Of a DNA stretch of 7,198 bases, positions 1,842-5,597 are shown one piece after another; the first letter of the stretch is position 1, and every line of letters begins with the position of its first letter. The notes beneath the pieces were generated by a model. That model saw only the letters and a program-made list of their open reading frames with translations, was not told the DNA's origin and searched no databases. This DNA is from Burkholderiaceae bacterium (GTDB lineage Bacteria; Pseudomonadota; Gammaproteobacteria; Burkholderiales; Burkholderiaceae). The stretch lies in assembly GCA_025458735.1 (NCBI GenBank), contig JALORV010000027.1, positions 1-7,198 on the forward strand. The letters are read 5' to 3'. Both the position numbers and the translations under genes were made by a program.

Positions 1842-1857
1842 TAGAGCCGAGGCTCTA
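1842..1857. promoter_or_regulatory. Perfect 7+7 palindrome in the reductase/phasin divergent region, candidate operator
   Basis: TAGAGCC-GA-GGCTCTA is a perfect inverted repeat with a 2-bp centre. It lies 71 bp before the reductase start and 78 bp before the phasin start, so one bound protein could influence both genes. Size and symmetry fit a site for a dimeric repressor such as a TetR-family protein, and a TetR gene lies about 2.3 kb away, but no second copy was seen to support the link. A weak -10-like TACACT for the reductase is at 1823-1818 without a good -35 box. Confidence 0.35.
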
Positions 1858-1868
1858 TGCAGGCGGTT

Positions 1869-1887
1869 GTCCTGCCGGCGTCAGGAC
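1869..1887. promoter_or_regulatory. Inverted repeat GTCCTG-N7-CAGGAC upstream of phasin
   Basis: A perfect 6-bp inverted repeat with a 7-bp spacer lies 48 bp before the phasin start. It sits between a weak -35-like TTGTCC (1867-1872) and a -10-like TAGACT (1891-1896) with 18-bp spacing, so it could be an operator or a hairpin in a leader. The promoter elements are poor matches and are only suggestive. Confidence 0.25.
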
Positions 1888-1935
1888 TCCTAGACTCGCA
1901 CCATCAGTCAAACACTTCCGAGGCGAGGATTCGAT

Positions 1936-2394
1936 ATGGTCAAGAAGCTCAAGGCAATGGCCGAGAAGTCGGGCAGCGAGAGCCAGCTGCGCGCCGCAGT
2001 GAAGGACTCCGCACAGGAGATCTGGCTGGCGGGTCTCGGCGCCTTCTCGAAGGCGCAGGAGGAAGGCCAGAAGGTGTTCAAGGCGCTGGTGCGTGAAGGC
2101 ACGAGCATCCAGAAGCGGACCATGAAGGTCACCGAAGACAAGGTCAATGACGTGACGGCAAAAGTGACGAAGGTGGCAGCCGGGCTGCAGAAGCAGGCCA
2201 ACGGCACCTGGGACAAGCTGGAGACCGTGTTCGAGGCCCGTGTCGAGCGCGCCCTGACGCGCCTCGGTGTGCCGACCAACAAGGAAATCGCCGCCCTCAC
2301 CAAGCGCGTCGAGGAGCTGACCCGCAGCGTCGGCACGCTGACCAAGACGCGTCCGGCCAAGGCGCCGGCCAAGCGCGCCCGTAAGGCGGCCTGA
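1936..2394 (+). CDS. Phasin family protein (PhaI/PhaF type), storage-granule surface protein
   Basis: 152 residues, ATG start with GAGGA (1925-1929) 6 nt upstream. The core EIWLAGLGAFSKAQEEG (28-44), then KVFKALVREG (46-55), is the signature of poly(hydroxyalkanoate) granule-associated phasins. It is followed by a long amphipathic helical region and GVPTNKEIAALTKRVEEL (111-128), a leucine-zipper-like coiled coil of the kind used for oligomerisation. The tail from residue 138 is Lys/Arg/Ala/Pro-rich (AKAPAKRARKAA), a short version of the histone-like PhaF tail, and might touch nucleic acid or polymer. There is no signal peptide or membrane segment. Phasins coat cytoplasmic PHA inclusions and control their size. 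With a fatty alcohol-forming reductase next door, it could instead or also coat wax-ester or other neutral lipid bodies; that is inference. No PHA synthase is visible in the window. Confidence 0.9.
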   Translation: MVKKLKAMAEKSGSESQLRAAVKDSAQEIWLAGLGAFSKAQEEGQKVFKALVREGTSIQKRTMKVTEDKVNDVTAKVTKVAAGLQKQANGTWDKLETVFEARVERALTRLGVPTNKEIAALTKRVEELTRSVGTLTKTRPAKAPAKRARKAA

Positions 2395-2405
2395 GCCTGC
2401 GACCG

Positions 2406-2435
2406 CGCGGTGCCGCTTCTGCGCGCGGCACCGCG
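2406..2435 (+). terminator. Perfect 11-bp stem-loop after the phasin gene
   Basis: CGCGGTGCCGC (2406-2416) pairs perfectly with GCGGCACCGCG (2425-2435) around an 8-nt loop, 11 bp after the phasin stop. Position and strength suit a transcript end or 3' stabilising structure, but no T-run follows, so it is not a classical intrinsic terminator. Confidence 0.5.
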
Positions 2436-2516
2436 GCCTCGGCGCGCGCGGGCGCCTGCCCCGCTGCCGCGCCGGCCCGCTGAGGACGGCATCATCGTCT
2501 TGCCCGAGTAAGCGCC

Positions 2517-2651
2517 ATGACGCGGCGCGCTTCCCATCCCGCCATGAAGCGACGGCCCGCGCCTGCGCGGAGTCCGCGCATCGGACTCGCGCTTGCAGGC
2601 GGTGGTCGTTCCGCGCCGCTGGCGCGGACGACGGAAGTCGTCTCATGGTGA
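2517..2651 (+). other. Leader mini-ORF 1: aborted patatin N-terminus (44 codons)
   Basis: This frame runs from ATG 2517 (alternative in-frame ATG 2544) to TGA 2651. It carries RSPRIGLALAGGG, the same sequence that opens the real patatin domain, and then runs into RSAPLARTTEVVSW and stops. It stops because tandem repeats interrupt the glycine motif. If the 268 bp of repeats (2608-2875) are removed in silico, this frame joins the patatin body exactly in phase (GGG then PLGAIYEIG), so it may be the ancestral start. No good ribosome site is visible. Its stop overlaps the ATG at 2645 (ATGGTGA). Whether it is translated is unknown. Confidence 0.5.
2577..2607 (+). repeat. Diverged 31-bp partial copy of the tandem repeat
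   Basis: These 31 bp match the last 31 bp of each 134-bp repeat copy (2711-2741 and 2845-2875) except at three bases (2591, 2597, 2603), all synonymous in the IGLALAGGG reading. Upstream of it the sequence is different, though an ATGAAGCG at 2544 loosely resembles the ATGGTGAAACG of the full copies. Confidence 0.8.
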
Positions 2652-2785
2652 AACGGACCGCCACCGGCCGCAGCGCTGCGCAACCTCGTCCACGGTCGCC
2701 AACGCGTCCACGCATCGGACTCGCCCTTGCCGGCGGCGGTCGTTCCGCGCCGCTGGCGCGGACGACGGAAGTCGTCTCATGGTGA
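2645..2785 (+). other. Leader mini-ORF 2: second aborted patatin N-terminus (46 codons)
   Basis: ATG 2645 opens MVKRTATGRSAAQP, passes through PRIGLALAGGG and, like mini-ORF 1, ends with RSAPLARTTEVVSW and TGA at 2783-2785. It is preceded by the same GGAAG and hairpin pair as the real start 134 bp downstream. Its last codons overlap the patatin ATG (2779) as ATGGTGA, an arrangement that permits translational coupling. It is a by-product of the duplication and may or may not be translated. Confidence 0.5.
2739..2776 (+). promoter_or_regulatory. Two mutually exclusive hairpins before the patatin start
   Basis: Hairpin A pairs 2739-2743 and 2745-2751 with 2755-2766 (CCGCGCC-GCT-GGCGCGG core, one bulged T, outer GTCGT/ACGAC). 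Hairpin B is GACGAC-GGAA-GTCGTC (2761-2776), a 6-bp stem with a GNRA-type loop. Both use 2761-2766, so only one can form. B places the SD-like GGAAG (2767-2771, 7 nt before ATG 2779) in and beside its loop; A leaves it free. The same pair occurs at 2605-2642 before ATG 2645. Regulation through this switch is inference from base pairing alone. Confidence 0.4.
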
Positions 2786-4047
2786 AACGGACCGCCACCG
2801 GCCGCAGCGCTGTGCAACCTCGTCCACGGTCGCCAACGCGTCCACGCATCGGACTCGCCCTTGCCGGCGGCGGTCCGTTGGGCGCGATCTACGAGATCGG
2901 CGCGCTGGCTGCGCTGACGGAGGCGCTCGAGGGGCTCGACTTCAACGAGGCCGACGTCTACGTCGGGGTGAGTGCCGGCGGCTTCATCGCGGCGGGACTC
3001 GCCAACGGGATCACGCCGCACCAGATGTCGCGGCTGTTCATCGAGGGCGAGAAGAGCAGCGACCGTTTCGAGCCGTCGATCCTGCTGCGCCCGGCATTCC
3101 GCGAATACGCGGCACGGCTGGCCTCGGTGCCGCCGCTGGCACTGAGCGCAGCGTGGCACTACCTGCTCGGCGCCAGCACCATCATGAGCGCCTTCGAGCG
3201 CCTTGGGCGCGCCATTCCCACCGGCGTATTCAGCGGCGACGAAGTGGACCGCTACCTGTCCGGCGTCTTCAGCCAGCCCGGTCGCAGCAACGACTTCCGC
3301 CAGCTCTCGCACAAGCTCTACCTCGTGGCCACCGACCTCGACACCGGATCGTCGGTGGCCTTTGGCGGCAAGGACCTCGACGGCGTGCCGATCTCGCGCG
3401 CAGTCCAGGCGTCGGCCGCGCTGCCGGGCCTGTTCCCGCCGGTGGAAATCGATGGCCGCTACTTCGTCGACGGTGCCTTGCGCAAGACGCTGCACGCCTC
3501 GATCGCGCTCGACCAGGGCGTCGACCTGATGCTGTGCCTGAACCCGCTGGTGCCGTTCGACTCGACCCCGCACCACCGCACGCGCGACCGCGAGCACCAG
3601 CTCGACAAGCTGGTCGAAGGCGGACTGCCGGTGGTGCTGGCGCAGACCTTCCGTTCGATCATCCACTCCCGGCTTGGCGCCGGCCTCGAGCGCTACAAGA
3701 CCGCGTACCCGCGCACCGACATCCTGCTGTTCGAGCCCAATCGCGCCGACGCGGACATGTTCTTCACCAACCTCTTTTCCTACTCCAGCCGCCGCCGGCT
3801 GTGCGAGCACGCCTACCAGAAGACGCGCGAGGAACTGTGGAAGCGGCGCCACGAACTCGCGCCGATGCTGCAGCGGCACGGCATCGAGATCCGCGACGAT
3901 GTCCTGCGCGACGACTCGATGACGCTGGTGAAGAGCCTGCGCCGCAGCCGCGGCACCTGGCGCGAGACGGCTTCGACGGCGGCAACCCGGCTGCTGACAC
4001 ACACGCTCGACGATCTGGAGCGCTGGCTGCGCTACGCCGCCGCCTGA
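2779..4047 (+). CDS. Patatin-like phospholipase / acyl hydrolase
   Basis: 422 residues from ATG 2779. The patatin fold signatures are all present: the oxyanion-hole loop GGGPLG (30-35) after RIGLALA, the nucleophile elbow GVSAG (63-67, Ser65) and the catalytic Asp of the DGA motif (231-233), giving the Ser-Asp dyad. There is no signal peptide; the enzyme should be cytoplasmic or loosely membrane-bound. Family members cleave acyl esters of phospholipids or neutral lipids; the substrate here is unknown, but the neighbouring phasin and acyl reductase suggest storage lipid or membrane acyl chains. I prefer ATG 2779 because GGAAG lies 7 nt upstream and the glycine motif follows after a short basic leader. 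The frame stays open to a TTG at 2593, but that extension reads the repeat in meaningless frames. The natural start may once have been ATG 2517 or 2544 (see mini-ORF 1). About 160 C-terminal residues after the DGA motif are charged and helical-looking, without a domain I recognise. Confidence 0.88.
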   Translation: MVKRTATGRSAVQPRPRSPTRPRIGLALAGGGPLGAIYEIGALAALTEALEGLDFNEADVYVGVSAGGFIAAGLANGITPHQMSRLFIEGEKSSDRFEPSILLRPAFREYAARLASVPPLALSAAWHYLLGASTIMSAFERLGRAIPTGVFSGDEVDRYLSGVFSQPGRSNDFRQLSHKLYLVATDLDTGSSVAFGGKDLDGVPISRAVQASAALPGLFPPVEIDGRYFVDGALRKTLHASIALDQGVDLMLCLNPLVPFDSTPHHRTRDREHQLDKLVEGGLPVVLAQTFRSIIHSRLGAGLERYKTAYPRTDILLFEPNRADADMFFTNLFSYSSRRRLCEHAYQKTREELWKRRHELAPMLQRHGIEIRDDVLRDDSMTLVKSLRRSRGTWRETASTAATRLLTHTLDDLERWLRYAAA

Positions 4048-4060
4048 GCCTGCGCGGACG

Positions 4061-4076
4061 GCTGCGGCACCGCGGC
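4061..4076 (+). terminator. Short stem-loop after patatin, in a segment shared with the phasin 3' flank
   Basis: GCTGCG-GCAC-CGCGGC forms a 6-bp RNA stem (one G-U pair) 14 nt after the patatin stop. GCGGCACCGCGGC (4064-4076) is also found at 2425-2437 after the phasin gene, and both genes end in GCCTGAGCCTGCG (2389-2401, 4042-4054). No T-run follows, so termination is uncertain. Confidence 0.25.
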
Positions 4077-4143
4077 GTGCCTGCGCTATTCTTGGCGCTT
4101 CCGCCCGGCCTTGCCTCTCATCCCCGGACCTCGCGCGCAGATC

Positions 4144-4803
4144 ATGGAACGCAAACCGCCGCGCCGCACGCGCGAACGCATCCTCGAGCTGTCGCTGCGC
4201 CTGTTCAACGACTTCGGCGAGCCGAACGTCAACACCACGCTGATCGCCGAGGAGATGAACATCTCCCCCGGCAACCTGTACTACCACTTCAAGAACAAGG
4301 ACGACATCATCAACTGCGTCTTCCAGCAGTTCGAGCGGGAGATCGACAGGCTGCTGACGGTGCCGTCCGAGCGCGCACCCAACGTCGAGGATGCCTGGCT
4401 GTTCCTGCACGTGCTGTTCGAGCTGATCTGGAAGTACCGTTTCTTCTACCGCGATCTCAACAACCTGCTCGCCAACAACCGCACGCTGGAACTGAAGTTC
4501 AAGCAGCTGCTGAAGCAGAAGGTGCAGGTGGCTCGCGGCCTGCTCGACGGCCTGACGCGCGCGGGCGAGCTGCAGGCCGGGCCGCGCGAGGTCGAGGCGC
4601 TGGCCACCAACATGGTGGTGGTAGCCACCTACTGGCTCTCCTACTCTTACGTGCTCGACCCGCGCCGGTTCAATGAACCCGAAGTGGTCGGCGCAGCACT
4701 GCAGCGCGGCTGCTACCAGGTCATGGCGCTGACGGCGCCGTACCTGAGCGGCCAGTCCCGCACGCTGTTCGAGCAGCTTGCCGCCGAGTATCTGACCGAC
4801 TGA
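4144..4803 (+). CDS. TetR/AcrR family transcriptional regulator
   Basis: 219 residues from ATG 4144. The N-terminal DNA-binding domain reads RTRERILELSLRLFNDFG (8-25), NTTLIAEEMNISPGNLYYHF (30-49), then KNKDDII (50-56), a textbook TetR helix-turn-helix with its recognition helix around 41-48. The rest is an all-helical ligand/dimer domain; FYRDLNNLLANN (101-112) and the preceding LIWKYRF resemble the bacterial repressor C-terminal type (Pfam PF13972, by memory). The frame is open to a TTG at 4111, which would add 11 residues not typical of the family, so ATG is chosen although no clear SD precedes it. It lies 96 bp after patatin and 14 bp before the TPR gene. By family habit it would repress its own or adjacent genes and release on binding a small hydrophobic ligand, possibly an acyl-CoA given the neighbours; that is inference. 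Confidence 0.92.
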   Translation: MERKPPRRTRERILELSLRLFNDFGEPNVNTTLIAEEMNISPGNLYYHFKNKDDIINCVFQQFEREIDRLLTVPSERAPNVEDAWLFLHVLFELIWKYRFFYRDLNNLLANNRTLELKFKQLLKQKVQVARGLLDGLTRAGELQAGPREVEALATNMVVVATYWLSYSYVLDPRRFNEPEVVGAALQRGCYQVMALTAPYLSGQSRTLFEQLAAEYLTD

Positions 4804-4817
4804 ACGCAGGAGACACC

Positions 4818-5597
4818 ATGGCCAAGGCGTGGGCGAAGTTCCCGTATCCCGACAAGAAGTACCAGTACACGGCCGCCTCGCTGAAAAAGGCGTGGGACCG
4901 CCTGCACAAGGGCGATGCCGAGCCGTTTCCGAAGAGCGAGGCAGCGGTCGAAGCCTGGATCGCGTTTCATGCCGGCGAGTTCCAGAAGGCTGCCGAACTG
5001 GGCCTGAAGGCCGGCGCCGAAGGCGCCAGTGTCGCCAACAAGGCACAGGCGATCTATGCCAACTATCTGGAGGACAGCGACAAGCGCAAGCTGGAGCTGT
5101 TCGAGGAAGTGGCGTCGCGTGCCGAGGCGCAGCAGGCGAAGGAACCGAAGAATCCGAACGCCCATTACTGGCAGGCCTACGCGCTCGGCCGCTACGCACA
5201 GGGCATCTCGGTGGCCAAGGCGCTGGCGCAGGGCATCGGCGGCAAGGTCAAGTCTGCGCTGGAGACCACGATCAAGCTCGCGCCCAAGCACGCCGATGCG
5301 CACATCGCGCTTGGGTCGTATCACGCCGAGGTGATCGACAAGGTCGGCGCGATGATCGGCGGGCTGACCTACGGCGCCAAGAAGGATGTGGCGTTGAAGA
5401 ACTACCAGGCCGCGCTGAAGCTCGCGCCCGATTCGGCGATCGCGCGCATCGAGTACGCCAACGGCCTCGTCATGCTCGAAGGCAAGAAGGCACTGAAGGA
5501 AGCCGAGAAGCTCTACAGCGAGGCGGCCGAGTGCGAACCCCTCGACGCCATGGAGCGTCTGGACGTCGAGCTCGCCAAGGCAGAACTCGAGGACTGA
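4818..5597 (+). CDS. TPR-repeat protein of unknown function
   Basis: 259 residues, ATG with AGGAGA (4808-4813) 4 nt upstream, only 14 bp after the TetR stop, so translated from the same message in all likelihood. No signal peptide or membrane helix is seen. The protein is helical with tetratricopeptide-like units: AVEAWIAFHAGEFQKAAELG (43-62), HYWQAYALGRYAQG (116-129), ALETTIKLAPKHADAHIALG (147-166), ALKNYQAALKLAPDSAIARI (192-211), then EYANGLVML and ALKEAEKLYSEAAECEP (225-241). Between the repeats at 147-166 and 192-211 sits a non-TPR insert, YHAEVIDKVGAMIGGLTYGA (168-187). The layout, with an insert between TPR units and the ISVAKALAQGIGGKVKSALE segment, reminds me of the eukaryotic RMDN/FAM82 TPR proteins; this is from memory and needs a profile search. 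TPRs bind partner proteins; no partner or catalytic activity can be named. Confidence 0.85.
   Translation: MAKAWAKFPYPDKKYQYTAASLKKAWDRLHKGDAEPFPKSEAAVEAWIAFHAGEFQKAAELGLKAGAEGASVANKAQAIYANYLEDSDKRKLELFEEVASRAEAQQAKEPKNPNAHYWQAYALGRYAQGISVAKALAQGIGGKVKSALETTIKLAPKHADAHIALGSYHAEVIDKVGAMIGGLTYGAKKDVALKNYQAALKLAPDSAIARIEYANGLVMLEGKKALKEAEKLYSEAAECEPLDAMERLDVELAKAELED

Follow-up and report, generated by a model that had tools for sequence, protein, structure and literature searches.

How is an enzyme translated when the front of its gene is repeated, in units whose length is not a multiple of three, inside the codons of its own catalytic loop? The question is raised by a DNA stretch of 7,198 nucleotides from a Burkholderiaceae bacterium (the window, labelled WIN; L, G and P numbers denote loci, genomes and proteins of relatives). 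The window carries genes for an SDR-family reductase (minus strand), a phasin (plus), a patatin-like phospholipase (plus), a TetR-type regulator (plus), a TPR protein (plus) and malate synthase A (minus). The phospholipase gene is an open frame of 422 codons on the plus strand (2779 to 4047), and its product matches Pfam Patatin (PF01734) with 100.7 bits against a cut-off of 27.7.

An earlier reading of the sequence alone had placed two 134-bp copies within the glycine-loop codons of this gene, and repeat analysis confirmed them. Unit 1 (2606 to 2739) and unit 2 (2740 to 2873), both on the plus strand, are identical at 133/134 positions, the sole difference being C at 2679 versus T at 2813; Tandem Repeats Finder gave a period of 134, 2.3 copies and a score of 573 for the window. 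Each unit begins and ends inside the third glycine codon of the GGG loop, after the second base of that codon, and three IGLALAGGG copies are spaced 134 bp apart. A partly similar front end (2517 to 2605) lies 5' of both units. It ends in a direct repeat (native copy at 2572 to 2605, plus strand; other copies at 2706 to 2739 and 2840 to 2873) whose copies are, in succession, 30/34 and 34/34 identical, and beyond the 30/34 repeat the N-terminus differs. The fronts are not simple repeats of a single N-terminus: the first is the native start, and those that follow represent a different start, which carries a complementary arm that had gone unmentioned. The two mini-ORFs of 44 and 46 codons were given exactly: the native leader ORF, at the original gene start (2517 to 2651, plus strand), is aborted at the TGA at 2649 to 2651, and a second aborted leader ORF spans 2645 to 2785 (plus strand). 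The leader TGA overlaps the next ATG as ATGGTGA, at 2645 to 2651 (plus strand), where the unit-1 ORF starts, and likewise at 2779 to 2785, with a spacing of -7 at both junctions, again as claimed.

The arrangement exceeds chance, as it recurs at the identical codon in six further loci. Bacterial genome contigs were searched for relatives of the enzyme and yielded 62 loci, six of which have the construction seen in the window (L001, L002, L003, L004, L007 and L008), so that seven unit-bearing loci were compared at the DNA level. Each relative locus has one, two or at least four units of 134, 128, 129 or 123 bp: L001 has two of 134 bp, L002 and L003 one of 134 bp each, L007 one of 129 bp and L008 one of 123 bp, and the L004 array consists of 257 bp for two units, including 10 N, followed by two of 128 bp, making at least four. 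Unit number thus differs between species among the seven loci. Identity between units of one array is 133/134, 127/134 or 128/128 and, as far as such identities tell, the units within arrays are recent. L008 belongs to a second family, not that of the window, and in this second family the homologous unit was found in one genome only. The proposed comparison of orthologous gene starts brought out both states: six relatives have units, but of the 11 readable orthologous loci in the window's family units are present in six (WIN, G001 to G004 and G007) and absent from five (G005, G006, G032, G042 and G043).

Wider searches revealed no additional unit loci in the family of G002 (67 genomes searched), in the family of G008 (249 genomes, 42 matching, 30 loci read) or in an order-wide protein search (37 genomes matching, 30 loci read); an order-wide pattern search of 399 genomes returned only G002 and G004, both already known. 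In a self-similarity scan of 112 loci, some genomes being represented twice and eight loci lacking a readable gene, the seven true duplications scored at least 48 and all others at most 29. L149 was excluded as a contig-end artefact, and L063 to L104 and L134 to L138 were left out as repeated loci, non-orthologues or loci read separately. L080 (G043) may contain a decayed unit: judged by eye, the 150 bases that precede GGG include an interrupted GLAL-like stretch and, after it, AACGATCCGCC; the unit covariance model scores 59.9 bits there.

The distance from the leader stop to the next ATG is -7 and -7 nt in the window, -4 and +2 in L001, -4 in L002, -1 in L003, -4, -4 and -4 in L004 (its second junction, which adjoins masked bases, is left out of the count) and +9 in L007. 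The stop therefore lies between -7 and +9 nt of the next ATG in 10 of 11 junctions, from six loci; among the remaining 20 frames at those ten junctions, none has a stop in this range and one has a stop within 15 nt. The eleventh junction is that of L008, where the unit is in frame and open. Because of shared ancestry, the ten junctions are not ten independent events. Since the linkers measure 39 nt in the window and L001 to L003 and 33 nt in L004, the coupling frame has survived both substitutions and a 6-nt change in length. Brown and Wade (PMC12548453) give a stop-start spacing of -4 to +3 as the most efficient; seven of the ten spacings fall within it, and the two of the window and the +9 of L007 fall outside.

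A Shine-Dalgarno (SD)-like site had been claimed for each copy, which the duplex energies do not bear out. At the gene start the energy is -3.6 in the window, where random positions average -3.1, -2.4 in L002 and -1.7 in L001, L003, L004 and L007, the last four having practically no site. Native starts range from -1.5 to -6.4 and the means for random positions from -2.7 to -3.1; in the window and L004 the native start does not surpass the gene start. SD strength backs coupling weakly. The view of the mini-ORFs as coupled leaders gains some support, by comparison between loci, from the spacing and, to a small degree, from the poor SD sites, but it does not extend to L008, which has no aborted leader. 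Predicted linker hairpins (2606 to 2644 in unit 1 and 2740 to 2778 in unit 2, plus strand) were matched in stability by 28/300 and 15/300 shuffles, respectively; across loci, four of nine such hairpins reach or exceed the stability of 95% of their shuffles.

Just behind each unit ATG lies the complementary arm. In the window and L001 to L004, AACGGNCCGCCGCCGGC begins 7 nt from the A of the unit ATG, and it reads as the reverse complement of GCCGGCGGCGGNCCGTT, the enzyme's codons for A-G-G-G-P-L. In the window the left arms of unit 1 (2652 to 2668) and unit 2 (2786 to 2802) are each complementary at 16/17 positions to the right arm formed by these enzyme codons (2863 to 2879), all on the plus strand. 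Pairing out of 17 amounts to 16 in the window, 14 in L001, 17 in L002, 15 plus one GU in L003, and 16 in L004, L007 and L008, the L008 value requiring one inserted base (otherwise 11/17). The arm starts 80 nt before GGG in the window and L001 to L004, 81 nt in L007 and 82 nt in L008. Over the seven loci, 93.3% of cells in the arm alignment pair, versus 27 to 57% in slid versions. Two of the pairs covary, and the covariation score is 0.174 versus 0.053 for shuffled alignments, and 0/500 shuffles reach it. The third-Gly wobble position pairs as AU in three loci, UA in two and CG in two, and the Ala wobble position as GC in four and CG in three. Neither the count of doubly changed pairs (2 versus 1.8; 392/500) nor that of pair types (4 versus 3.4; 250/500) exceeded the shuffles in these seven loci. 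Because the arms of L007 and L008 are read in other frames, the arm is not kept for its residues. L005, which has unit-like start residues and no unit, matches the arm at 13/17. A scan of 113 loci found matches of at least 14/17 in WIN, L001, L002, L003, L004, L007 and L156; the 14/17 match of L156, where there is no duplication, was taken as GC-rich chance. By fold prediction, the arm-gene stem forms in the window, L002, L003, L004 and L008 (the last without a leader stop). It is missing from the predictions for L001, whose arm pairs with the copy in the leader, and for L007, whose arm pairs with neither.

Two types of enzyme start exist among relatives. They were distinguished at the protein level, from predicted starts, in the 120 listed relatives (P0001 to P0120) of 7,998. 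A simple pattern assigns 35 of the 120 to the unit type, 31 of these 35 beginning 28 to 29 residues before GGG; 77 have other starts, 12 to 48 residues before GGG (P0001 and P0018 are counted here yet are unit-type by eye), and eight are truncated. Both the length and the sequence of the N-termini differ greatly among the listed relatives. In a tree built from the sequence that follows GGG, their start types are interspersed among the tips: 26 changes are needed for the unit-type label (33 rows, a length of 28 to 29 being required), with a shuffled mean of 29.1 and 49/500 shuffles as low, and the other-start label (79 rows) needs 25 changes, with a shuffled mean of 33.5 and 0/500 as low. P0019 and P0024, separated by a tree distance of about 0.003, have unrelated N-termini as judged by predicted starts only. 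Four of the five leaders compared (WIN, L001, L002, L003 and L007; the start of L004 is ambiguous, and its leader was left out) resemble equal-length starts in use in sister lineages. The L001 leader resembles P0054, P0050, P0048 and P0052 (0/200 shuffles reach the score), that of L003 resembles P0103 (5/200) and that of L007 resembles P0078 (8/200). The window's leader resembles P0005, P0015, P0010 and P0013, its best match being P0087 elsewhere on the tree (5/200). The exception is L002, whose leader has a distant unit-type start as its best match (2/200).

At the DNA level, the close relatives L008 and L009 differ in the presence versus absence of the unit: L009 equals L008 minus exactly one unit, and a unit therefore comes or goes between close relatives while the native start remains. 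A unit could be lost in one step by recombination between direct repeats, a gain being the other possible direction. Suitable repeats connect the native front with the first unit at 30/34 positions in the window, 28/32 in L001, 37/38 in L002, 26/28 in L003, 35/35 in L007 and 27/29 in L008 (L004 was left out of this comparison for its masked bases). The proposal that the last ATG always opens the enzyme agrees with the window, L001 to L004 and L007, but the zero-unit L009 is opened from the native start. On the Rhodocyclaceae side, in L008, L009, L105 and L109, the N-terminus at the gene start reads SPRKRG...LDSRLRGND, which resembles a translated palindromic intergenic repeat that now forms the gene front.

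The best reading of these observations, to which we give an even chance, is a tandem start cassette used by termination-reinitiation. Each unit would supply a linker, an ATG with a poor SD site, the 17-nt arm, an alternative N-terminus and one more set of GLALAGGG codons. Ribosomes would begin at the native start, read the leader and reach a stop codon that overlaps the next ATG or is close to it, terminating there; they would then reinitiate, one time for each unit, and finally translate the enzyme from the last ATG. The arm-gene stem, immediately downstream of the ATG, would impede initiation by new ribosomes and, as stem and poor SD together would weaken it, the enzyme is proposed to depend on arriving ribosomes. 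Each extra unit would then add one more inefficient restart step. Recombination between the direct repeats would add or remove units, and full removal would fuse the native start to the enzyme; unit number would set the count of restart steps and so act on dosage as a dimmer rather than a switch, zero units giving direct translation with a different N-terminus. Chemla et al. (PMC7518266) report less reinitiation in a synthetic E. coli operon when structure closely follows the stop codon, and a depletion of such structure at short distances and in overlapping genes; the stem may for that reason make each restart costly rather than help it. In favour of the cassette reading stand its recurrence at one codon in seven loci, the stop-start spacings, the linker lengths that preserve the coupling frame, the pairing and covariation of the arm, the variable number and recent age of the units, the likeness of leaders to starts in use elsewhere, the L008 and L009 pair and the interspersed start types. 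Several observations count against the cassette reading: L008 is in frame without an aborted leader, and the window's -7 and the +9 of L007 lie outside the optimum. To these may be added the weak SD contrast, the lack of a predicted arm-gene stem in L001 and L007, the modest share of significant predicted hairpins (4/9), the effect of post-stop structure reported by Chemla et al., and the two pair counts that do not exceed shuffles. A stronger version, which we regard as possible but on the unlikely side, holds that the cassette is self-contained and selected, forming a reinitiation ladder tuned by copy number: units would equal restart steps, unit loss would swap the N-terminus and bring direct initiation, and the catalytic-loop codons may double as one strand of a regulatory stem.

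The main rival of the cassette reading is that the units are a mutational by-product without regulatory use, an explanation that we hold only tentatively possible, somewhat on the doubtful side. Direct and inverted repeats would have driven tandem duplication in this GC-rich gene, whose N-terminus tolerates change, template switching at quasi-palindromes would keep the arm complementary, and each unit's own start would save the gene. Template-switch correction of quasi-palindromes is a known process. The wide variation of relatives' N-termini in length and sequence and the alternation of unit presence and absence between close relatives suit such a history, yet it does not lead one to expect that the coupling spacing is kept in 10/11 junctions, that unit-type starts stand 28 to 29 residues before GGG in 31/35 proteins when other starts range over 12 to 48, or that the arm distance is fixed at 80 to 82 nt.

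A tiny mobile element, site-specific for GGCGG^N of the patatin gene and restoring the frame by carrying the gene front, would account for the fixed boundary in seven loci, the tandem accretion of units, the clean empty site in L009 and the homologous unit in a second family (one genome, L008). We consider it improbable. The unit covariance model, applied to 67 genomes, matched the patatin locus in ten and otherwise gave one marginal match (G038, E 0.007), and unit sequences differ between hosts. Of eight genomes scanned with a linker-plus-arm pattern, five gave a match at the patatin locus; the single match outside that locus was in G003. A dispersed repeat of the REP or MITE kind was rejected, since the many genomic copies that it requires were not found by the covariance model and pattern searches. 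A dispersed hairpin was likewise rejected, the linker core CCTCGCTNCGCTCGGC (which fits the L002 to L004 linkers only) lying mostly at the patatin locus: in seven genomes it occurs there once in G002, once in G003 and four times in G004, and elsewhere once each in G004 and G005. A plasmid search with positions 2500 to 2900 of the window gave no match, positions 2350 to 3000 matched no Rfam family at E <= 1, and five IMG/VR stretches matching the ATGAACGAACGG motif proved by translation to be other genes. Full-length integron integrases were noted in five of the eight genomes examined (G002 to G006). These are the genomes over the cut-off, G001 having a partial match and G007 and G008 none over it; integrase presence does not track the units, G005 and G006 having an integrase and no unit, and the integron idea was dropped. 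An assembly artefact, or a true enzyme start elsewhere, is very improbable: several relatives are metagenome assemblies and the L004 array has a run of 10 N, but seven loci have diverged copies, one of them (L007) in a 3.7 Mb chromosome record, and the last ATG stands 29 residues before GGG, as is usual for unit-type starts.

The cassette reading combines features of translational coupling, repeat contingency loci and post-stop structures, which are already known kinds. Integron cassette arrays have tandem units, a fixed boundary, an internal inverted repeat and a clean empty site, all shared by the present construction, but here there is one target gene, no cassette gene and an integrase that does not follow the units. 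Repeat-based contingency loci are phase variation systems. They require a tandem repeat, which is present at the patatin gene start in the window and relatives, and the likeness extends to its position inside the gene start and to a copy number that differs between relatives; here, by contrast, the unit is not a multiple of three and the last copy opens the gene, so that no on/off switching is expected. The likeness to translational coupling (PMC12548453) is a stop and start that overlap or nearly touch, together with an apparently weak initiation site of the gene itself at several of the gene starts seen here. Downstream translation would, as in coupling, depend on upstream translation; the difference is that here the front of the gene itself supplies the upstream ORF, as an aborted copy, in tandem and in variable number. 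The ribosome termination structure of PMC7518266 resembles the stable stem predicted just behind the stop codon, but here the stem would use downstream catalytic codons, at an overlapping pair where depletion is reported. Searches of the open-licence PMC literature listed no gene whose front is repeated in tandem as self-starting copies that work in this way, in line with the sequence-only reading, to which no such system was known.

By its sequence, this construction of some environmental bacteria resembles a repeat-based means of tuning or swapping the start of one enzyme. If the cassette reading is true, it would be a repeat-based tuner of expression, exempt from the inactivation that an out-of-frame repeat usually brings to its gene, and reinitiation efficiency would be an evolvable dial. 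It would also place an RNA-level constraint within catalytic codons, whose third-Gly and Ala wobble bases covary with the arm. If the ladder version holds, a change in the repeat would tune expression and swap the N-terminus with the frame unbroken.

Some further observations concern the leaders and the neighbourhood of the gene. A search with the leader peptides returned 61 proteins at E <= 10, comprising gene fragments, three leaders like that of L007 and one in-frame duplication. The three (P0122, P0124 and P0126) are short peptides stored as separate proteins, two of them named acylesterase. The in-frame duplication (P0125, on a 717-bp contig) belongs to another patatin subfamily and repeats the GLALAGGG front, joined directly behind GGG. 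The phasin gene (1936 to 2394) lies directly 5' of the patatin gene, a hint of a role at polyhydroxyalkanoate granules. On the minus strand, an open frame of 1114 codons (1855 to 5199) runs antisense to the phasin, patatin and TetR genes; long antisense open frames are frequent in GC-rich DNA.
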